NCBI RefSeq assembly: GCF_004363095.1 | Contig: NZ_SNYO01000004.1 | Coordinates: forward strand, 248,001 to 312,000 | DNA: 64,000 bases | Origin: Actinomycetospora succinea | GTDB lineage: Bacteria; Actinomycetota; Actinomycetes; Mycobacteriales; Pseudonocardiaceae | Direction of reading: 5' to 3' | In this document: positions 20,135 to 28,302 of the stretch, piece by piece | Layout of the letters: each line of letters opens with the position of its first letter | Position numbering within the stretch: the first letter of the stretch is position 1 | The notes under the pieces: generated by a model | What the model was told of the DNA's origin: nothing | What the model saw: the letters and a program-made list of their open reading frames with translations, nothing else | Databases searched by the model: none | Program-made: the position numbers and the translations under genes

Positions 20135-20170
20135 CCTTCCCCTCGGCGTGTTCCCGGGCGGGGCGAGCGC

Positions 20171-20224
20171 ACGGGGTGTGTCAGCGTGGCGGCCACGCTG
20201 ACGTTGAACGTCAGGAAATCCCCC
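20171..20224 (-). repeat. Double-palindrome repeat R1, copy A (left arm around the AbiEi-like gene)
   Basis: On the minus strand it reads GGATTTCC, then TGACGTTCAACGTCA (20213-20199), then GCGTGGCCGCCACGC (20198-20184), then tgacaCACCCC: two abutting perfect palindromes, each with a 1-nt centre. It is inverted relative to copy B at 21319. The first TGA of the palindrome is the stop codon of the AbiEi-like gene. Confidence 0.85.
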
Positions 20225-21215
20225 ATCTCGATCCCGGTTGGTCTTGGCTCATCTGAGGAGCCGCGTACAGCGCCCGTGCCGGTGGGAGCGCCGCGGCGAC
20301 CGCCAGCCCGTCACGGACGTCCTGGAGGACGCCGTCCGGGTCGTCACGTCGCTGGGACGGCCGCGTGCTCACGAGGTGCAGACCGACGGCGCGCAGCGCT
20401 CGCGCCCGCCGTGCCGTGGCCTCGACCTGGGCGGGCGTCGCGAAGTGCTGCTCGACGGAGTCGATCTCCCAGGCGAACCCCAGCTCCTCGACGAGGACGT
20501 CGACGATGCCGATCGGTCGGCCCGACAGGTCGAACACGCGGACGTTGAAGCGTGCGGGCGGCAGGTTCGGCTGGGCGAGCCACCACGCGCGAGCGTCGAA
20601 CTCCGCGCCCGACCACACGCCGTCCAGCAGGGCACGGAGCACGGCCCGTGGCGCGGCGGTGCCCTTCCGGCAGCCGGCGTCGAGCTCCTCGAGCAGCTCC
20701 TGCGGGGTGACCAGGTAACGGCGCACGGCCTCTGCGAACAGTTCGGCGATCGCCGTCGGGTCGGTCATGAGCCGGGCCTCGTCCGTGAGCGTGCGGGTCA
20801 GCGGCGCGACCGGTAGTCCGCAGCGCTCCTCGGGATGCGGCATGCGTGACGTCCGCTCGACGTGGAAGGGCCCCCAACTGCGGACCTGGCGGGAGTGGGC
20901 GACGAGCAGGTGGACCTGCTCGGGCTCCGGGCCGCTCCGCATGCCGTGGAGCCGCAGTGCCGCCCGGCCCGTGATCATCGAGTAGTCGCCGGCGTGGAGC
21001 AGCCCGGCGATCATCGTCTGGCGCCAGGTCGGCTCGCCGTTGTGCAGGGCGATGATGCCCGGACCGAGCCGCTGCCACGGCTCGCCGTCGCGGCAGCGGC
21101 GATAGGCGGTGCCCTCGGGGACGCCGAGGAGCTCGAGCTCCCTGACCGCGATCACGCCCTCGCGGCTCGCCGCCCACAACAGCTCCGGCGCGACCGCCCA
21201 CTCACCCCTGCGCAT
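20211..21215 (-). CDS. AbiEi-like antitoxin-domain / DUF559-like protein
   Basis: A 334-residue protein. The N-terminus is a winged helix as in AbiEi-family antitoxin domains (LLWAASREGVIAVRELELLGVPEGTAYRRCRDGEPWQRLGPGIIAL). The C-terminus (FNVRVFDLSGRPIGIVDVLVEELGFAWEIDSVEQHF...RARALRAVGLHLV) resembles the DUF559/Vsr-like nuclease fold, with Asp in GIVDV and Glu/Asp in WEID as possible metal ligands. No AbiEii toxin is adjacent, so a complete type IV toxin-antitoxin pair is not supported. The final Ile-Ser and stop codon lie inside repeat R1 copy A; copy B sits 100 bp upstream of the start. ATG 21215 is the first good start; upstream alternatives exist. Confidence 0.7.
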   Translation of the reverse strand: MRRGEWAVAPELLWAASREGVIAVRELELLGVPEGTAYRRCRDGEPWQRLGPGIIALHNGEPTWRQTMIAGLLHAGDYSMITGRAALRLHGMRSGPEPEQVHLLVAHSRQVRSWGPFHVERTSRMPHPEERCGLPVAPLTRTLTDEARLMTDPTAIAELFAEAVRRYLVTPQELLEELDAGCRKGTAAPRAVLRALLDGVWSGAEFDARAWWLAQPNLPPARFNVRVFDLSGRPIGIVDVLVEELGFAWEIDSVEQHFATPAQVEATARRARALRAVGLHLVSTRPSQRRDDPDGVLQDVRDGLAVAAALPPARALYAAPQMSQDQPGSRWGIS

Positions 21216-21318
21216 GTCGCCACGGTGCGCGACGTCGAGCCGGGAGCGTGAATCGTCGCCCCGAACCCTGTGGACGCATTCGGAGGATGTGGACAACCCC
21301 TGTTCCTACGAGCTGGTG

Positions 21319-21366
21319 GATTTCCTGACGTTGAACGTCAGCGTGGCCGCCACGCTGGAACACCCC
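21319..21366 (+). repeat. Double-palindrome repeat R1, copy B (right arm around the AbiEi-like gene)
   Basis: GGATTTCC, TGACGTTGAACGTCA (21326-21340), GCGTGGCCGCCACGC (21341-21355), tggaaCACCCC. It is an inverted, nearly identical counterpart of copy A about 1.1 kb away, with the gene between the two inner ends. Confidence 0.85.
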
Positions 21367-21569
21367 GGGCCTCGAGAGCGAGTCACGGCGGCGCAACACG
21401 GGGCGGAGGACGACCCGCCGTCGTAGTCACGAGGAAACACTTCGGAAATCGGTGGTTGGTGTGCTCAACACCAGCGCGAGGTCGGCGAGGACCCCGCTGC
21501 TTCCCCCGCATCCCGGCCGTCGCGCCGGTCGCCGCCATCGATGACGAACAGCACTCGAGGAGATCCAGC
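21367..21569 (+). promoter_or_regulatory. Upstream region of the Nit1C operon
   Basis: No gene lies between the AbiEi-like start (21215) and nitB (21570), a 354-base stretch holding repeat copy B and this region. Two candidate regulator sites are visible: GAAAC-N6-GAAAT (21434-21449), which has GlnR-box phasing, and the inverted repeat TGGTGT-N5-ACACCA (21457-21473). A GAGGAG ribosome site lies just before nitB. I cannot place a confident -10. Confidence 0.4.
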
Positions 21570-22088
21570 ATGACGAGCACCGAGCTCTCCGACGTCGAGA
21601 AGAAGAGCCTCGAGGAGATCCCGCACCCCTCGCTGCCCGAGGGCTCGAGCATCTACGGCGGGACGAAGGTCTTCCCCGACCTGCAGGCCGAGAACGGCGA
21701 GTCCTACTTCACGCTCGTGCACGGCATCGCGCACGAGTCGTCGGTCAGCTTCGTCGCCGTCCTCCAGGCCACGCGCGCCCTGCGCAAGGGCTTCGAGTCG
21801 GCGATGTACTTCTACGGCCCCGGCTCGCTGAACTGCCTGGCCACGCGCGGCTTCCCCACCACGGGCACCTCGGCGTTCCCCGGCGAGCACAACATCAACG
21901 ACCAGCTCAAGACGTTCATGGGCGAGGGCGGCAAGGTCTACTGCTGCCGCTTCGGCCTCTCGCTGCACGGTGCGCGCGAGGAGGACCTCATCGAGGGCGT
22001 CATCCCCACGCACCCGCTCGACGTCCAGGACGCGCTCATCCACTACGCCCGCAAGGGCGCGATCATCAACTCGACCTACCAGCTCTGA
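21570..22088 (+). CDS. nitB: MSMEG_0572/sll0783 family nitrogen-starvation protein (NitB of Nit1C)
   Basis: A 172-residue protein with the conserved sequence of the MSMEG_0572 family: YGGTKVFPDLQAENGESYFTLVHGIAHESSVSFVAVLQATRALRKGFESAMYFYGPGSLNCLATRGFPTTG and GEHNINDQLKTFMGEGGKVYCCRFGLSLHG. The biochemical role is unknown, but it is the first gene of the conserved Nit1C cluster reported to be needed for cyanide use as nitrogen source and induced by nitrogen starvation. ATG 21570 follows a GAGGAG site; an extension upstream would have no ribosome site. Confidence 0.93.
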   Translation: MTSTELSDVEKKSLEEIPHPSLPEGSSIYGGTKVFPDLQAENGESYFTLVHGIAHESSVSFVAVLQATRALRKGFESAMYFYGPGSLNCLATRGFPTTGTSAFPGEHNINDQLKTFMGEGGKVYCCRFGLSLHGAREEDLIEGVIPTHPLDVQDALIHYARKGAIINSTYQL

Positions 22089-22161
22089 CGTGCCGCGGCC
22101 GGCGCGGGGCGACCCGCGCCGGGCCGTGTCCCCTCATGTCGAGAGCTCTGGAGGTCCGCAC

Positions 22162-23259
22162 GTGTCGTCCGATCCCGGGCTGTCCGCCCGCTCCGAACTG
22201 GCCGTCCGCGGCGTCGCGGTCGACCTCGGCCCCTCCATCCCGCTGCGCCGCCCCGGCGGCGCCGGCCCGTCCGCCGACGGCCACGTCCTCGTCGACGGAC
22301 TCAAGACCACGATCCCGATCAATCCGGCGAGCCCCTACCGCCTGAAGGACGGGCGCCTGGTCCGCACCGGCCCCGACGGCGGCGTCACCGACCTCGGCGT
22401 CGACGTCGACACCGTCGCCCGCCCCGCGTTCTACGACCTCACCACCGCCGACGGCGTGCCCTACGAGAAGATCGCCCGCCTGCACGGCAACGACGTGCTC
22501 GCGACGACCGTCGTGCAGACCTGTGTCCGCTACGACGAGCCGGACCGCTGCCGCTTTTGCGCCATCGAGCAGTCGCTGCGCACCGGCGCGACCACGGCGG
22601 TGAAGACGCCCGAGCAGCTCGCGGAGGTCGCCGAGGCCGCGGTCCGCCTCGACGGCGTCAGGCAGATGGTGCTGACGACGGGCACGTCGAACGGCCGTGA
22701 CCGCGGCGCCCGCCACCTCGCCCGCTGCGTGCGGGCGATCAAGGCCGCGGTGCCCGGCCTGCCCATTCAGGTCCAGTGCGAGCCGCCCGCCCCGTCGGAC
22801 CTCGGGGCCATCGCCGACCTCCACGACGCCGGCGCCGACGCGATCGGCATCCACGTCGAGTCCCTCGACGACGCCGTCCGCGCACGCTGGATGCCCGGCA
22901 AGGCGAGCGTCCCGCTCTCCCAGTACTGGCTCGCCTGGGACGAGAGCGTGCGCCTGTTCGGCCCGAACGCCGTGTCGACCTACCTCATCGTCGGCCTCGG
23001 TGAGGACCCCGACGAGCTCGTCGCCGGCGCCGCCCAGCTCGTCGACCGCGGCGTCTACCCCTTCGTCGTCCCCTACCGCCCGATCCCCGGCACGCTCGCG
23101 TTCGCCGACGGCGACCCCGCGCCCGACCCGGAGCTGCTCGCCGAGGTCACCGCGCGCGTCGCCAAGGTCCTGGTGGCCGCCGGCATGCGCGGCGCCGACC
23201 AGGCCGCCGGGTGCGCGGCGTGCGGCGCGTGCTCGGCGCTGTCCGCGGCGGGGGGCTGA
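22162..23259 (+). CDS. nitD: MSMEG_0568 family radical SAM protein (NitD of Nit1C)
   Basis: A 365-residue radical SAM enzyme. The cluster ligands are spaced C121-x8-C130-x2-C133 (TCVRYDEPDRCRFC) instead of the common CX3CX2C. Partial TIM-barrel motifs follow (QMVLTTGTSNGRDRG, IQVQCEPPAP, DAIGIHVESLDD, STYLIVGLGEDPDEL). The C-terminus ends in GCAACGACS, a CxxCxxC group that could hold an auxiliary cluster. It presumably makes or modifies a small molecule in cyanide/nitrile use; the reaction is unknown. GTG 22162 is preceded by GGAGGT at 22150-22155. Confidence 0.92.
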   Translation: MSSDPGLSARSELAVRGVAVDLGPSIPLRRPGGAGPSADGHVLVDGLKTTIPINPASPYRLKDGRLVRTGPDGGVTDLGVDVDTVARPAFYDLTTADGVPYEKIARLHGNDVLATTVVQTCVRYDEPDRCRFCAIEQSLRTGATTAVKTPEQLAEVAEAAVRLDGVRQMVLTTGTSNGRDRGARHLARCVRAIKAAVPGLPIQVQCEPPAPSDLGAIADLHDAGADAIGIHVESLDDAVRARWMPGKASVPLSQYWLAWDESVRLFGPNAVSTYLIVGLGEDPDELVAGAAQLVDRGVYPFVVPYRPIPGTLAFADGDPAPDPELLAEVTARVAKVLVAAGMRGADQAAGCAACGACSALSAAGG

Positions 23260-23264
23260 GGACG

Positions 23265-24737
23265 ATGTCGATCCTCGACGACCTGGGCGCCGCCGACGAG
23301 ATCCTCGGCGGACGGACTCGCCGGCCCGCCCGGGACATCACGATCGCCGAGGCGCCCGCGATCGACGGGCGCCACCCCGACGTCGTCGCCCACCGCGCCC
23401 TGCGCCGCGCGGTCTTCGTCGACGAGCAGGGCCTGTTCCGCGACGACGTCACCGGCGACCTCGACGAGCACGACCACGACCCGCGCGCCGTCGTCCTCGT
23501 CGCCCGCGACGGCGCCGGCGAGGTGCTCGGCGGCGTCCGGCTCGCACCCGCCGACCCGGACGCCGCGCGCCCCGACCTCGGCTGGTGGACGGGCAGCCGG
23601 CTCGTCGTCGCCCCGACGGCCCGGCGTCGCACCGGCGCCCGGGTGGGCGCGGCACTGATCCGCGCCGCCTGCGCCCGCGCCGAGGCCGCCGGCGTCCTGC
23701 GGTTCGAGGCCGACGTGCAGGCCGCCAACGAGACCCTCTTCCGGCGTCTCGGCTGGCAGCGGGTCCGCGACACGACGATCAAGGGCCGCCCGCACGTGCA
23801 CATGCGGTGGCCGGTCGGGCGCTTCGCCGACCTCGTCGCCGCGACCAAGGCCCCGCTCGGCGAGCTCGTCGCCGGGCTGGCCGGGTCGGGGCTCCACGTC
23901 GGCGACGACGGGGCGCCGGTGCCGGGCAGCGATGTCGTCGCGGCCTGCGACGCGATCCTCCCGGCGATGGTCGAGCGCGATCCGGAGTGGGCCGGGTGGT
24001 GCGGGGTGCTCGTCAACGTCAACGACCTCGCGGCCATGGGTGCCGCGCCGACCGCGCTGCTCGACGCCGTCGGCGCGCGCGACGCCTCGTTCGCCCACCG
24101 CGTGCTCACCGGCCTGCGCGCTGCCGCCGCCGCGTACGGCGTCCCGGTGATCGGCGGGCACACCCAGCTCGAGGTGCCCGCCTCGCTCGCCGTCACGGCG
24201 CTGGGCCGCACGTCCTCGCCCGTCCCCGCCGCGGGCGGGCGGGCGGGCATGGCGGTGCGGCTCACCGCCGACCTCGGCGGCACCTGGCGACCCGGCTACA
24301 CCGGCCGGCAGTGGGACTCGACGTCGACGCGCGCGCCCGCCGACCTGCGGGCGATGGTCGCGGCGCTCGGGCCCGACGCGCCCCACCGCCCGGCGGCGGC
24401 CAAGGACGTCTCGATGGCCGGGGTCGTCGGCACGCTCGGGATGCTCGCCGAGGCGTCGGGCACCGGCGCGGTGCTCGACGTCGCCGCCGTGCCCCGTCCG
24501 GCCGGCGCGACCGTCGCCGACTGGCTGACCTGCTTCCCCGGCTTCGCGCTGCTCACCGCCGACGACTCGGGCGCCCCCGCCCCGGCCGCGGGACCGGCGA
24601 CGAGCGCCGTGTGCGGGGAGCTGACCGAGAGCCCCGGGGTGGCCCTGCGCTGGCCCGACGGCGAGCTGACCGAGGCCGTCGCGGGCGGCGTCACGGGACT
24701 GGGCCGGGCCGCGACCGACGAAGGGAACCACCCATGA
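23265..24737 (+). CDS. GNAT acetyltransferase-AIR synthase fusion (NitE-NitF of Nit1C, MSMEG_0567/sll0786-0787 families)
   Basis: A 490-residue two-domain protein. Residues ~25-185 are a GNAT N-acyltransferase (AVFVDEQGLFRDDVTGDLDEHDHDPRAVVLVAR, then TARRRTGARVGAALIRAACARAEAAGVLRFEADVQAANETLFRRLGWQ). Residues ~195-480 are an AIR-synthase/PurM-like ATP-binding domain (WCGVLVNVNDLAAMGAAPTALLDAVG, PVIGGHTQLEVPASLAVTALG, KDVSMAGVVGTLGMLAEASG, ELTEAVAGGVTGLGR). Some Nit1C clusters encode these as separate proteins, here one chain. ATG 23265 lies 5 bp after the nitD stop; its stop overlaps nitC (ATGA). Confidence 0.9.
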   Translation: MSILDDLGAADEILGGRTRRPARDITIAEAPAIDGRHPDVVAHRALRRAVFVDEQGLFRDDVTGDLDEHDHDPRAVVLVARDGAGEVLGGVRLAPADPDAARPDLGWWTGSRLVVAPTARRRTGARVGAALIRAACARAEAAGVLRFEADVQAANETLFRRLGWQRVRDTTIKGRPHVHMRWPVGRFADLVAATKAPLGELVAGLAGSGLHVGDDGAPVPGSDVVAACDAILPAMVERDPEWAGWCGVLVNVNDLAAMGAAPTALLDAVGARDASFAHRVLTGLRAAAAAYGVPVIGGHTQLEVPASLAVTALGRTSSPVPAAGGRAGMAVRLTADLGGTWRPGYTGRQWDSTSTRAPADLRAMVAALGPDAPHRPAAAKDVSMAGVVGTLGMLAEASGTGAVLDVAAVPRPAGATVADWLTCFPGFALLTADDSGAPAPAAGPATSAVCGELTESPGVALRWPDGELTEAVAGGVTGLGRAATDEGNHP

Positions 24738-25618
24738 CCGTCAGGACGTTCGCGGCCGCGGCCGCCGGCTTCGGCCGCGACCTCGACGAGGACTTCGCGA
24801 CGATCGCCACGCTGCTCGGGCAGGCGCGGGCCGCGGGCGCCGACCTGCTCGCGCTGCCCGAGGCCGCGCTCGGCGGGTACCTGTCCTCGTTGCACGACTC
24901 GGGCGGGCGGGGTGAACCCGTGGACGTCCCCCCGGAGCTGGAGGTCGACGGCCCCGAGGTGCGGCGGCTGATCGCGCTGGCCGGCGACACCGTCGTCACC
25001 GCGGGCTTCTGCGAGCGCGGCGACGAGGCGTCGGGCGGGCGGCCGTACAACAGCTGCGTCGCGGTGACCGGCGACGGCGTGCTCGGGCACCACCGCAAGG
25101 TCCACCAGCCGCTGAACGAGAACACCTCGTACGCCGCCGGTGACCGCTTCGCCGCCTTCGACACGCCGATCGGGCGGCTCGGCATGATGATCTGTTACGA
25201 CAAGGCGTTCCCCGAGGCGGCCCGGGCGCTGGCGGTCGACGGGGCGCGGGTCGTGGTGTGCATGTCGGCGTGGCCGGCAGCGCGGACCGACCCGGCGCCG
25301 GTGCTCGCCGACGACCGCTGGACCCGGCGCTTCGACCTCTTCGACCGCGCGCGGGCGTTGGAGAACCAGATCGTCTGGGTCTCGGCGAACCAGGCCGGGA
25401 CGTTCGGCGACATGCGGCTGGTGGCGAGCGCGAAGATCGTCGACCCCGGCGGGGAGGTGCTCGACACCACGGGCACCGAGGCCGGTCTGGCCGTCGCGTC
25501 GGTCGACGTCGACGACGCCGTGGACGCCGCGCGGCGCTTCATGGGGCACCTGCGGGACCGTCGCCCGCGGTCGTACTCGCGGCCGTCGACGCCCCTCGTC
25601 CCGGCGCGGGCCGGCTAG
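24734..25618 (+). CDS. nitC: Nitrilase (NitC of Nit1C)
   Basis: A 294-residue nitrilase-superfamily branch-1 enzyme with an intact catalytic set: Glu43 (LLALPEAALGG), Lys122 (GHHRKVHQP), Glu129 (LNENTSY) and Cys154 (GMMICYDKAFPEAA), followed by VVCMSAWPAA. In Nit1C clusters this nitrilase is required for cyanide assimilation, probably hydrolysing cyanide or a derived nitrile to ammonia. ATG 24734 overlaps the stop of the preceding fusion gene by 4 bp. A second, degenerate copy follows 8 bp downstream. Confidence 0.94.
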   Translation: MTVRTFAAAAAGFGRDLDEDFATIATLLGQARAAGADLLALPEAALGGYLSSLHDSGGRGEPVDVPPELEVDGPEVRRLIALAGDTVVTAGFCERGDEASGGRPYNSCVAVTGDGVLGHHRKVHQPLNENTSYAAGDRFAAFDTPIGRLGMMICYDKAFPEAARALAVDGARVVVCMSAWPAARTDPAPVLADDRWTRRFDLFDRARALENQIVWVSANQAGTFGDMRLVASAKIVDPGGEVLDTTGTEAGLAVASVDVDDAVDAARRFMGHLRDRRPRSYSRPSTPLVPARAG

Positions 25619-25626
25619 GCCGGAGG

Positions 25627-26466
25627 GTGGTCCGCCTCGCCGCTGCCGCGGCCCACTTCACGCGCGACGTCGGGTTCGACCTCGACCGCATCAAGATGAT
25701 CGTCTCGCACGCGCGGGACGCCGGGGTGGCGCTGCTCGCGCTGCCCGACGGGGCGCTCGGCGGGTACCTCACCGACCTGCGCCGTCCCGACGAGGAGTGC
25801 CTGCCGCCGCTGCTCGAGCCGAACGGCGACGAGGTGCGGTCGGTGATCGACATCGCGGGCGAGATGGTGGTGTGCCTGGGGTACAGCGAGCTGGGCTCCG
25901 ACGAGGGTGCTGCTCCGGTGCGCTACGACGCGGCCGTGTGCCTGTCGGGCGACGGCATCCTCGGCCGGCACCGCAAGGTGCACATCCCGGCCGGTGTGGC
26001 GCCGCTGTTCCAGCCCGGCGACGGGTTCGCGGCGTTCGACACCCCGCTCGGGCGGATGGGCCTGCTCATCGACCACGACAAGACGTTCCCGGAGGCGGCG
26101 CGGACGCTCGCGGTCGACGGCGCCGAGACCATCGCCTGCCTGTCCGCGTGGCCGACGTCGCTGACGAACCGGGCGCCGCGGATGGCGCAGGACCGCCAGG
26201 CGCGGCTGTTCGACCTCTACGACCAGGCGCGGGCGGCGGAGAACCAGGTGGTCTGGCTGTCGTCGAACCAGAGCGGGCGGCACGGGGCGCTGCACTTCCT
26301 GGGGCGCGCGAAGATCGTCGGGCCGGGCGGGGAGATCCTCGCGCGGACGTGGTCGAAGGGCGGGCTGGCGGTGGCGGAGGTGGACCTGCCGGGCATCGTC
26401 GGCGCGGCGCGCTCGGTGCTGCACCACCTGTCGGAGCGCCGGCCTTCCACCTACGGGCCGTGGTGA
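25627..26466 (+). CDS. Catalytically degenerate nitrilase paralogue
   Basis: A 279-residue protein that aligns end to end with the preceding nitrilase (LLALPDGALGGYL, GRHRKVHIP, GLLIDHDKTFPEAARTLAVDGAE, CLSAWPTSL). Of the catalytic set only Lys117 remains: Glu becomes Asp41, the nucleophile Cys becomes Asp149, and the second Glu region is unrelated. The frame is intact and well conserved, so it is probably a structural or regulatory partner of NitC rather than a decaying copy. GTG 25627 lies 8 bp after the nitC stop with GGAGG directly against it; the start is less certain than the rest. Confidence 0.85.
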   Translation: MVRLAAAAAHFTRDVGFDLDRIKMIVSHARDAGVALLALPDGALGGYLTDLRRPDEECLPPLLEPNGDEVRSVIDIAGEMVVCLGYSELGSDEGAAPVRYDAAVCLSGDGILGRHRKVHIPAGVAPLFQPGDGFAAFDTPLGRMGLLIDHDKTFPEAARTLAVDGAETIACLSAWPTSLTNRAPRMAQDRQARLFDLYDQARAAENQVVWLSSNQSGRHGALHFLGRAKIVGPGGEILARTWSKGGLAVAEVDLPGIVGAARSVLHHLSERRPSTYGPW

Positions 26467-26467
26467 C

Positions 26468-27562
26468 GTGCGGATCGCCCTGCTGACGTACTCGACGAAG
26501 CCGCGCGGGGGCGTGGTGCACACGCTCGCGCTGGCCGAGGCGTTCGCGCGGGCGGGGCACTCGGTGACGGTCTGGGCGTTGGCCCGGGGTGGCGACACCG
26601 GGTTCTTCCGGTCGGTGTCCGACGGGGTGAGCGTGCGGCTGGTGCCGGTGCCGGAGATCGACGGCGAGTCGGTGGGGGAGCGGATCCTGCGGTCGATCGC
26701 GCTGCTGGCTTCCGAGTTCTCCGGGGAGTACGACGTCGTGCACGCGCAGGACTGCCTGACGGCGAACGCGGTGGGTCGTGCCCGGGGCTACGGCTCGCTG
26801 TGGCGCACGGTGCACCACCTGGACCAGTTCACGACGCCGGAGCTCGCGGCGTGCCACGAGCGGGCCCTCGTGGAGCCGGCCTCGCTGGTGTGCGTGTCGG
26901 AGGCGGTGGCGGGCGAGGTGCGCGCCGGGTGGGGGAGGGCGCCGGCGGTGATCGGGAACGGGGTGGACTCCGCGCGGTTCGCGTCGGCGGCGTCCTCGGG
27001 TGCGGGCGAGCCGTGGCGGGCGCGGTACGGGCGCTACGTGCTCGCCGTCGGGGGGATCGAGCCGCGCAAGGGGACGGTGGAGCTGGTGTCGGCGATGGCG
27101 CGGCTTCCCGGTGCACCGCTGGTGATCGCGGGCGGGGACACGCTGTTCGACTACCGGTCCTACCGCGAGGAGGTCTTCGCGCGGGCGGCGGAGCTGGGCG
27201 TGGAGCCGGTGGTGCTGGGGCCGGTGCCCGACGAGGAGCTCCCAGGGCTCGTCGCGGGCGCGGCGGTGTTCGCGTTCCCGTCGACGAAGGAGGGCTTCGG
27301 GCTCGCGGCGATGGAGGCGCTGGCGGCCGGGGTCCCGCTCGTGACGCGCGATCTCCCGGTGCTGAGCGAGGTGTTCGCGGGCGCGGCGCGCTTCGCCGAC
27401 GGGCCGGAGGGCTTCGCGCGCGAGATCGCCGCGGTGCTCGAGGGGTCGGACGTCGACGCGGCCCACGCGACCGTCGGCCGCGCCCTCGCCGCGGCGCACA
27501 CGTGGGACGCGGCGGCCGACGCGCACCTGGCCCTCTACCGCCGTGGTGCTCCGAGCGACTGA
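26468..27562 (+). CDS. MSMEG_0565 family glycosyltransferase (GT4)
   Basis: A 364-residue GT-B enzyme: N-terminal domain MRIALLTYSTKPRGGVVHTLALAEAFARAGHSVTVWAL; C-terminal nucleotide-sugar domain with LAVGGIEPRKGTVELVSAMA, VLGPVPDEELPGLVAGA and the E-x7-E motif FPSTKEGFGLAAMEALAAGVPLV. This family is a regular member of actinobacterial Nit1C clusters; its acceptor is unknown. GTG starts 1 bp after the upstream stop, so it belongs to the operon. The NitG (MSMEG_0570) and NitH flavoprotein (MSMEG_0569) genes often found in such clusters are absent here. Confidence 0.9.
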   Translation: MRIALLTYSTKPRGGVVHTLALAEAFARAGHSVTVWALARGGDTGFFRSVSDGVSVRLVPVPEIDGESVGERILRSIALLASEFSGEYDVVHAQDCLTANAVGRARGYGSLWRTVHHLDQFTTPELAACHERALVEPASLVCVSEAVAGEVRAGWGRAPAVIGNGVDSARFASAASSGAGEPWRARYGRYVLAVGGIEPRKGTVELVSAMARLPGAPLVIAGGDTLFDYRSYREEVFARAAELGVEPVVLGPVPDEELPGLVAGAAVFAFPSTKEGFGLAAMEALAAGVPLVTRDLPVLSEVFAGAARFADGPEGFAREIAAVLEGSDVDAAHATVGRALAAAHTWDAAADAHLALYRRGAPSD

Positions 27563-27577
27563 AACGGCCGAGGCCCG

Positions 27578-27760
27578 GTGCGAGCGATGCGGCTTTGCTG
27601 GCGTCTGACGCCAGGATCGCCACATGCTCGCTCGCGCGACACGCCGGGGAGCGCGCCGAGGCCCGGGGTGTGTCAGCGTGGCGGCCACCCGCGGCACGAA
27701 GCGAAGCGGAGCTGCCGCGCCGGAGGCGGAACACGGCCGCTGAACGTCAGAAAATCCACC
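27578..27760 (-). repeat. Long inverted repeat, left arm, containing disrupted R1 copy C
   Basis: The outer part (27578-27665) is the reverse complement, with about 90% identity over its best 68 nt, of 28169-28236. It includes the perfect palindrome CTGGCGTC-T-GACGCCAG (27598-27614). The R1 unit follows: GCGTGGCGGCCAC (27676-27688), then 52 bp (27689-27740) in place of the usual 8 bp, then TGAACGTCAGAAAATCC. The 52-bp segment is itself partly palindromic and holds R2 copy 5. The TGA of the ATL gene is in this arm. Confidence 0.8.
27697..27718 (+). repeat. Dispersed purine-rich repeat R2, copy 5 (divergent)
   Basis: CGAAGCGAAGCGGAGCTG matches the R2 core with A in place of two G/C positions. 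It lies inside the extra 52 bp of the left inverted-repeat arm. Confidence 0.45.
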
Positions 27761-28046
27761 CGCTCGCGACGCGATGGTTCGCGAGGACGACGCGACCGTC
27801 GCGGATCTCGACACCTTCGGCGCGCAGGCGGGCGTGCTGCTCGTCGAGGATCTGCGGGGCGCTGGACCCGTTGGCGCGCAGGACGCGGTGCCACGGCAGG
27901 TCCGAGCCGTCCTCGCTCAGCACGCGGCCGACCAGGCGCGCCGACGCCTCGCCCACCTCGGCAGCGACGTCGCCGTACGTCGCCACGCACCCCTCGGGGA
28001 TCGCGGCCACCGCCGCGCGGATCCGCTCGTGCCGGTCCTCGTCCAC
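27747..28046 (-). CDS. Alkyltransferase-like protein (ATL, MGMT DNA-binding domain without catalytic Cys)
   Basis: A 99-residue protein equal to the MGMT C-terminal DNA-binding domain: RIRAAVAAIPEGCVATYGDVAAEVGEASARLVGRVLSEDG, then DLPWHRVLRANGSS. The alkyl-acceptor motif PCHR reads PWHR, which defines ATL proteins; they bind O6-alkylguanine and hand it to nucleotide excision repair without removing the alkyl group. GTG 28046 gives the normal ATL length. The stop codon (27749-27747) falls in the repeat arm at its 3' end, and a matching inverted arm begins 64 bp upstream of the start. Confidence 0.88.
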   Translation of the reverse strand: MDEDRHERIRAAVAAIPEGCVATYGDVAAEVGEASARLVGRVLSEDGSDLPWHRVLRANGSSAPQILDEQHARLRAEGVEIRDGRVVLANHRVASGWIF

Positions 28047-28109
28047 GCCGCTGAGTCCAGCACGAGCGACACCCGGTCCGGGAGCCGGGAGCGCGGTGAT
28101 CGTGGCGGC

Positions 28110-28236
28110 TTTTCTGACGTTCAACGTCAGCATGGCCGCCACGCTGAAACACCCTCGGCTCGCTCCACGGCGTGTCGCGCGAGCGAGGATGTGGCGATTC
28201 TGGTTCCAGACGCCAGCGATGCCGCATCGCTCGCAC
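28110..28236 (+). repeat. Long inverted repeat, right arm, containing R1 copy D
   Basis: TTTTC, TGACGTTCAACGTCA (28115-28129), GCATGGCCGCCACGC (28130-28144), tgaaaCACCC, then an outer extension to the stretch ending GCCGCATCGCTCGCAC that pairs with the left arm. The second palindrome has one mismatch (CA for CG). Together with the left arm it encloses the ATL gene in a 659-bp unit with no transposase. Confidence 0.8.
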
Positions 28237-28302
28237 ACCCCGTGTGCGCCGCCGCCACCCACCTCCACGCCCTTGTCGGGGGGACGTGGTGGAGTGGTGA
28301 GC

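Follow-up and report, generated by a model that had tools for sequence, protein, structure and literature searches.

Two unrelated genes of the soil bacterium Actinomycetospora succinea, one for an AbiEi-like protein and one for an alkyltransferase-like (ATL) protein, are each enclosed by inverted copies of the same double palindrome, here called R1. The locus raises the question of whether the palindrome carries these genes as cargo or whether one of the genes serves the palindrome. The window is the whole 64,000-nucleotide stretch of DNA that was analysed.

The R1 and R2 palindromes

The repeats described here are about 60–75 bp long and are made of two adjoining palindromes. The four copies that a sequence-only reading had placed around the two genes were confirmed. 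Copy A (20169..20232, minus strand) and copy B (21308..21370, plus strand) are intact and form the downstream and upstream arms of the AbiEi-like gene (20211..21215, minus strand), ranking first and third of 88 R1 matches and thus among the three copies nearest to the family consensus. Copy C (27661..27766, minus strand) is split by R3, a GC-rich hairpin insert of 49 nt (27689..27737, no strand assigned), and copy D (28099..28157, plus strand), also intact, lies between the ATL gene (27747..28046, minus strand) and a divergent helicase-like gene. As had been noted, both genes end at the inner palindrome: copy A provides the TGA of the AbiEi-like gene (20211–20213), and copy C provides the last codons of ATL together with its TGA (27747–27749). 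The distance from the other arm to the start had been given as 64–100 bp; by the gene calls used here it is about 92 bp for the AbiEi-like gene, within that range, and about 52 bp for ATL, near but below it.

A second palindrome related to R1, designated R2 and absent from the earlier finding, lies outside both ATL arms. One copy is on the downstream side of ATL (27577..27649, minus strand) and the other adjoins copy D (28165..28239, plus strand), so that an outer inverted repeat with 84-nt arms results (pair I1). R1-R2 tandems are common, and 17 of 105 R1-model matches, among the matches listed, coincide with R2.

The suggestion that the palindrome is a dispersed MITE- or REP-like repeat was borne out. 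R1 forms a dispersed, mostly intergenic, REP-like family of 87 copies (88 matches) in the genome stretches examined, which were selected for R1 and also hold 54 R2 matches. The exact palindrome occurs at 26 places genome-wide and, with one mismatch allowed, at 44, with none for the reversed control. Allowing up to three mismatches gives 12 matches across the window, a site matched on both strands counting twice, against 0.83 expected, and none of 100 shuffles reaches 12.

There are 26 neighbouring R1 pairs closer than 4 kb, one of which, in (-,-) orientation, is merely the two halves of copy C. The remaining 25 comprise 22 (-,+), two (+,+), one (-,-) and no (+,-) pairs, with about 4.7 close pairs expected from chance spacing. 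The inverted geometry therefore recurs in the genome, the 22 including the two pairs described originally (A/B and C/D). Six of the 22 are tight, with 72–108 bp between centres, and resemble REPIN-like inverted doublets; the other 16 enclose 415–3292 bp.

ATL and orthologous places

Such geometry is what would be expected of a mobilisable single-gene cassette whose cargo can vary, as the sequence-only reading proposed. ATL (Pfam DNA_binding_1, E=4.4e-17) is matched in 37 of 41 genomes, although some matches are weak and perhaps paralogues. In four congeners (G007, G010, G015 and G016) it is divergent from the same helicase-like gene with no R1 or R2 within 1.3 kb of it in the flanks examined. 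Eight congeners carry R1 and/or R2 matches to either side of the gene, weak ones (16–18 bits) in G002 and G008. Mobile cargo is thereby ruled out for ATL. Judged by this comparison, the gene is ancestral at its place and the repeats arrived around it. Genes at ancestral positions without the repeat had been named beforehand as counting against the cassette, and this is what was found for ATL.

A further pair offers a point on each side. G000 and G005 have both of the arms at C7:204167 and C7:205108 and G011 has neither, as a cassette would have it, but the enclosed stretch is retained in G011, which has no arms there. A cassette of interchangeable cargo is very improbable. A part of the proposal that stands is that the AbiEi-like gene and its arms behave as a unit, since its protein clade coincides with arm type.

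Orthologous places were mapped in relatives for 28 single-element places, ranked by coding flank, from 87 usable clusters. Of these, 27 could be placed in one or more of three genomes, filling 60 of 84 possible cells. One of the 27, C3:766065 (27 bp), is unlikely to be a genuine R2. One clean repeat insertion with a CTAG target duplication was found. CTAG was considered as a general target and rejected, occurring in only 2 of 94 end windows (47 R2 copies) against about 0.24 expected; the duplication is retained as a single case.

The AbiEi-like gene encodes a predicted nuclease

The AbiEi-like gene encodes 334 aa from the predicted start at 21215, in an ORF that is open to 21296. The predicted structure (pLDDT 93.6) consists of an AbiEi-like part (residues 5–197) and an EDxHD/Vsr-like part (202–309), together nearly the whole protein, and does not resemble a HUH/Y1 tyrosine transposase. 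The product is accordingly modelled as an AbiEi-type N-terminal domain fused to an EDxHD/Vsr-type nuclease domain. Among 62 homologues, E205 is conserved in 61, D239 in 58, D252 in 60 and H257 in 59; their correspondence to catalytic residues of Vsr is putative, by spacing only. Public sources label such proteins as 'hypothetical protein' or AbiEi antitoxin.

The closest fold to the C-terminal domain is that of I-Bth0305I, an EDxHD homing endonuclease from a family whose members are described as forming dimers on nearly 60 bp of target DNA (PMC3943268). Unlike that enzyme, the gene here occupies its own intergenic place, apparently outside any intron or intein, and the N-terminal part of its product is AbiEi-like. 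It differs from AbiEi antitoxins of type IV toxin-antitoxin systems in the extra nuclease domain. As for an adjacent AbiEii toxin gene, no PADLOC family match was found in the four neighbouring ORFs and no such Pfam match in seven ORFs.

The AbiEi domain is the clearest sequence similarity of the protein (PADLOC AbiEi, E 8.7e-14), which would suit a DNA-binding regulator or chromosome-organising factor with dispersed operators, autoregulated through the two flanking palindromes. The repeats would then have spread by other means, the nuclease fold being a relic or having another role. The mostly intergenic position of the palindromes fits this as well, only 11 of 88 R1 midpoints lying within called genes where the coding share of the stretches is 80%. 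However, one of the two sites is downstream of the gene, 58–61 of 62 homologues keep the acidic residues and the histidine of the nuclease domain, and a repeat insertion with target duplication is on record. The repeats also provide stop codons or stand in frame within a gene, unlike operators. This reading is considered unlikely.

Most homologues carry their own arms

Inverted repeats bound the gene at 23 of 25 near homologue loci and at 17 of 29 class-wide loci, the latter being the best-scoring ones, for a total of 40 out of 54. The arm sequence is in each case the locus's own. The 12 class-wide loci without arms at the threshold include both loci of family f33 (L214 and L223). No control loci had arms (0 of 50 and 0 of 540), the controls being far flanks and shuffles. 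These were chosen because related loci in the set spoiled cross-locus pairs, which were dropped as a control (3000 pairs with a median of 23, a 95th percentile of 32 and top values reaching 527). The own-genome gene control is skewed towards R1 because the stretches were selected for R1.

The arm palindrome has a dispersed family in three lineages, the R1 and R2 types of Actinomycetospora and genome G104. In G104, a genome from another bacterial family, the arm palindrome is again dispersed, with 37 arm matches and none in nine other genomes. It was also considered whether the G104 repeats had inserted into terminator hairpin loops; an extended pairing score of 13.3 against 13.0 for mismatched flanks, at 9 sites, left this unsupported.

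Within the genus, the clade of the protein agrees with the type of its arms and with the repeat type that abounds in the genome, contrary to the tree of the neighbouring genes. Kinship and cross-matching of the R1 and R2 models both confound the repeat counts. G000 has 63 R2 matches, yet no R2-armed gene was found there, and G002, of another arm type, has 48 R1-model matches, nearly equal to the 49 of the draft genome G004.

These arms bear on whether R1 and R2 are ordinary BIME/REP-like terminators, selected at gene ends and moved by some transposase, with AbiEi-like genes just frequent neighbours. In favour of this, the gene adjacent to the CACCCC side of R1 points at the repeat in 64 of 88 cases, against 47 of 88 on the other side, and an R1-like sequence shows good RNA folding (z -3.15). 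Rfam has no RNA family match in the window, and no RNA claim is made for R1 because an RNAalifold consensus of 47 copies shows the 3' hairpin only, with covariation absent. Against it stand the locus-specific arms at 40 of 54 homologue loci, the top ranks of the arms of the nuclease gene, and the congruence of protein clade with arm type. This explanation is still more doubtful than the regulator.

A proposed partnership of nuclease and repeat

Since the AbiEi-like gene and most of its checked relatives sit between their own inverted repeats, the gene probably encodes the enzyme that spreads or maintains the R1 family, as is thought of RAYT transposases for REP. We infer a REP/RAYT-like partnership with a predicted nuclease in place of the HUH transposase. 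The protein would bind its own palindrome and cut DNA, and break repair would place copies of the repeat at new sites or in place of older ones; where no enzyme is resident, the repeats would decay. ATL and other ordinary genes would be bystanders beside settled repeats, sometimes borrowing a stop codon. This model gives no account of the R1 pairs around ordinary genes. The earlier view of a unit lacking its own enzyme is not plainly so, given that the enclosed gene is itself a candidate enzyme; the nuclease domain, the homologue arms and the dispersed families are not visible from one window.

REP/REPIN-RAYT (TnpA-REP) systems, as described, likewise have a single enzyme gene between inverted palindromes, many gene-less dispersed intergenic copies with inverted doublets, and co-evolved enzyme-repeat pairs (PMC3116915, PMC8266576, PMC3733652). 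They differ in their HUH tyrosine transposase, where an AbiEi plus EDxHD/Vsr-fold nuclease is predicted here; the length of the repeats and their two adjoining palindromes also set the present system apart, as does its finding in one class of Actinomycetes. The CGTC-tagged REPs are likewise short palindromes scattered near the ends of genes, with many in opposite orientation, but the study describing them reports no dedicated transposase (PMC3733652), whereas a candidate partner gene is found here. REP elements have an unpaired GTAG or CGTC tag beside the hairpin; CGTC is present in R1, within the paired arm. The same study assigns no enzyme to whole REP classes, and a word search of the main text of that source did not find 'Actinobacteria' (PMC3733652).

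No description of an AbiEi-nuclease/palindrome pairing was found in the open-access literature searched, most subscription journals and preprints lying outside it. To our knowledge, the only known partners of bacterial REP repeats are HUH tyrosine transposases. If the pair is real in many genomes of one class, it would be a second means, unrelated to the first, of maintaining small palindromes as a population in a genome. It would also give a role to proteins labelled as hypothetical or AbiEi antitoxin, and would allow a one-gene swap to test how REP-like repeats arise and turn over.

A more tentative possibility is repeat takeover, in which each AbiEi-EDxHD allele would use cut-and-copy repair to replace foreign palindromes throughout the chromosome by its own type. 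Swapping the nuclease gene and its arms would then retype the scattered repeats in place. If true, this would be a homing system that targets a whole repeat family. Exchange between R1 and R2 is seen at orthologous places, and may reflect R1-R2 tandems that lost different members. Several cells scored as having neither repeat contain remnants with scores of 11–18.

R1 and R2 in the window and the genome

The four R1 copies recognised by the sequence-only reading are present in the window, with A and B around the AbiEi-like nuclease gene (20211..21215, minus strand) and C and D around the alkyltransferase-like gene, ATL (27747..28046, minus strand). As it had also claimed, both genes end at a TGA that their inner palindrome provides. 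Copy C has a 49-nt GC-rich hairpin inserted in it. The genome as a whole (6.47 Mb, 23 contigs) contains 26 perfect matches to the first palindrome, or 44 when up to one mismatch is allowed, and none to the reversed palindrome. Profile searches of stretches fetched around matches to a covariance model, itself derived from 47 copies, gave 88 R1 hits, which represent 87 copies as copy C is counted twice, and 54 hits for R2, a related double palindrome. Among two-element clusters with R1 and R2 in the same orientation, R2 comes 3' of R1 in 29 of 33, mostly at a distance of about 98 bp. R1 is largely extragenic, its midpoint being within a called gene in 11 of the 88 hits, whereas 80% of the stretches are coding. 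By motif, R1 is carried by 9 of the 61 genomes searched, including this one, all of one genus; scanning named genome contigs for the motif yielded 42 stretches, every one of them titled Actinomycetospora. At the centre of the second palindrome, three bases vary by species (CCG, CCC, ACG).

The ATL gene

Matches to ATL are found in 37 of 41 genomes, part of them weak. In four congeners (G007, G010, G015, and G016) it is divergent from the same neighbour, which we take to be helicase-like from its P-loop and which has no match in Pfam, and in these four there is no R1 or R2 match within 1.3 kb of ATL. In eight congeners R1 and/or R2 matches flank ATL on both sides, weakly in G002 and G008. Because the divergent neighbour is the same without the repeats in four congeners and the repeats are present in eight, ATL should be seen as a bystander, an old gene beside which repeats settled, rather than as cargo of the mobilisable single-gene cassette or MITE-like unit that had been proposed for both genes. 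The 5' part of R1 encodes the last ATL codons in this genome, and the alignment is similar in most of the eight repeat-flanked congeners.

Between copies B and C (21570-27562) is a cluster of radical SAM, GNAT/AIR-synthase-like, presumably nitrilase-like, and glycosyltransferase genes. Its last gene adjoins ATL in the repeat-bearing clade and was not found beside ATL in the four congeners with repeat-free ATL surroundings.

The AbiEi-like gene and its homologues

Unlike ATL, the AbiEi-like gene is no bystander. Its arms, the inverted repeats bounding it, rank first and third of the 88 R1 hits, and do so with the covariance model as well. A homologue was scored as having arms when inverted repeats lay no more than 450 bp away on both sides and reached a local score of at least 40. 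In the genus and order sample (47 matches, 25 loci fetched), 23 of 25 loci have arms, the arm sequence being own to each locus. Class-wide, 120 of 197 genomes searched have a match; 17 of the 29 loci taken from the best-scoring genomes have arms, three of which (L206-L208) are close relatives of one another, and 12 have none at this threshold despite being best-scoring ones. Among controls, arms were found in none of 50 far flanks, in none of 540 shuffles, and in 6 of 219 genes from R1-chosen stretches.

In a genome of another family (G104), the arm palindrome of the homologue has 37 arm matches genome-wide, the exactness of the gene's own arms following from the search pattern, and none in nine other genomes, including a congener. 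A second AbiEi-nuclease homologue in A. succinea (L197, G000:C3:551223-552113) is bounded by a third palindrome, with GAGCGAAGGGCACCTTCGCTC-type tandem hairpins on both sides; this has 18 matches in 0.82 Mb of the genome, counting both strands and overlaps, and its reversed control has none. At L270, the place in G012 orthologous to G000:C7:205108, there is a third type of repeat, which looks by eye like the arms flanking the C16 paralogue of G012.

Association of protein clade, arm type, and repeat abundance

Protein clade, arm type, and repeat abundance go together. Close to ATL, the orthologous nuclease genes of this genome (G000), G005, and G009 are flanked by R1-type arms, those of G006, G011, and G012 by R2-type arms, and that of G002 by a third type; the gene in the fragmented G004 assembly, listed apart from those placed near ATL, also has R1-type arms. 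In the protein tree, R1-armed and R2-armed proteins each form a clade (support 100/99). Three neighbouring genes group G000 with G011 (93/96), and a nuclease tree constrained to this grouping is rejected (p 1.5e-29).

The counts for both repeat types are confounded with kinship. R1-model matches (E<=1e-6, 150 candidates scored per genome) number 94, 81, 72, and 49 in the R1-armed G000, G005, G009, and G004, and elsewhere 48 (G002), 36, 34, 34, 33, 32, 21, 4, 3, 2, and four zeros. R2-model matches number 88, 68, and 55 in the R2-armed G012, G011, and G006, and elsewhere 63 (G000), 23, 11, 4, 4, 3, 2, 1, and seven zeros; the models partly cross-match, with 17 of 105 own R1-model hits coinciding with R2. 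R2 copies are thus numerous in G000, in which no R2-armed gene was found, as would be expected if the allele had changed recently.

Orthologous places

From 87 usable clusters of A. succinea, 28 single-element places were mapped in G005, G011, and G012, with 60 of 84 cells readable. R1-armed G005 has R1 at 10, R2 at 2, and neither at 6; R2-armed G011 has R1 at 2, R2 at 12, and neither at 11; and G012 has 3, 7, and 7, respectively. Scores are low (18-39) for the five cells of G011 and G012 that read as R1. Occupied cells differ between G005 and the other two (Fisher p 0.0008). Element type is unlike that of A. succinea in 13 cells at 10 places, always with orientation kept, and at C7:57098 both R1 and R2 match in G005. 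In-place retyping would account for these differences, and so would unequal loss from R1-R2 tandems. In a syntenic stretch of about 300 kb shared with G011 (88.3% identity), the only clean insertion is one R2 element with an empty site in G011, where CTAG is present once; in A. succinea the element has CTAG on either side. The ends of other R2 copies do not usually show this tetramer.

Comparison with REP-RAYT systems

REP-RAYT systems are described as having an enzyme gene between inverted repeats, a dispersed gene-less repeat family, doublets, and co-evolved pairs (PMC3116915, PMC8266576, PMC3733652). The AbiEi-nuclease/R1 set matches this architecture and behaviour, but it is not a RAYT system since the defining HUH transposase is absent. 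By its modelled fold the predicted enzyme belongs with the EDxHD/Vsr nucleases. EDxHD enzymes are described as dimerising on nearly 60 bp (PMC3943268), a target length close to that of R1. The AbiEi-nuclease protein may bind its own palindrome and cut DNA, upon which repair would copy the repeat. A role for the protein as a regulator is possible but less likely.

Geometry of R1 pairs

Removing the false pair formed by the two halves of copy C leaves 25 neighbouring R1 pairs less than 4 kb apart, not 26. Of these, 22 are (-,+), with GGATTT sides inward and including the two pairs of the sequence-only reading, and none are (+,-); under an equal-orientation null p is 3e-10 for 22 of 26, the false pair being counted among the 26. 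Six of the 22 are tight (72-108 bp) and resemble REP doublets, and the other 16 enclose 415-3292 bp. The neighbouring gene, as called with a simple codon model, is directed at R1 on the CACCCC side in 64 of 88 cases and on the opposite side in 47 of 88. The (-,+) excess around ordinary genes is unexplained by the proposed copying model. One such pair has both arms in G000 and G005 and neither arm in G011.

Inserts at R1 sites

R3 (27689-27737; also L145, L146, and L149) is a GC-rich hairpin of 40-50 nt, at a nearly constant position inside R1 palindromes across G000, G008, G011, and G012, as if R1 were its target. Six of the genome's own R1-model hits are longer by 40-45 bp. An R3-containing R1 copy (L018, G000:C7:204167-204266) is within a 668-aa ORF; length differences in relatives are multiples of three bases, and G011 is without it. 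In G002 and G017 (L150 and L151), the R1 place downstream of ATL has another insert (CCTGTCGGCGTGCTG...) within the first palindrome.
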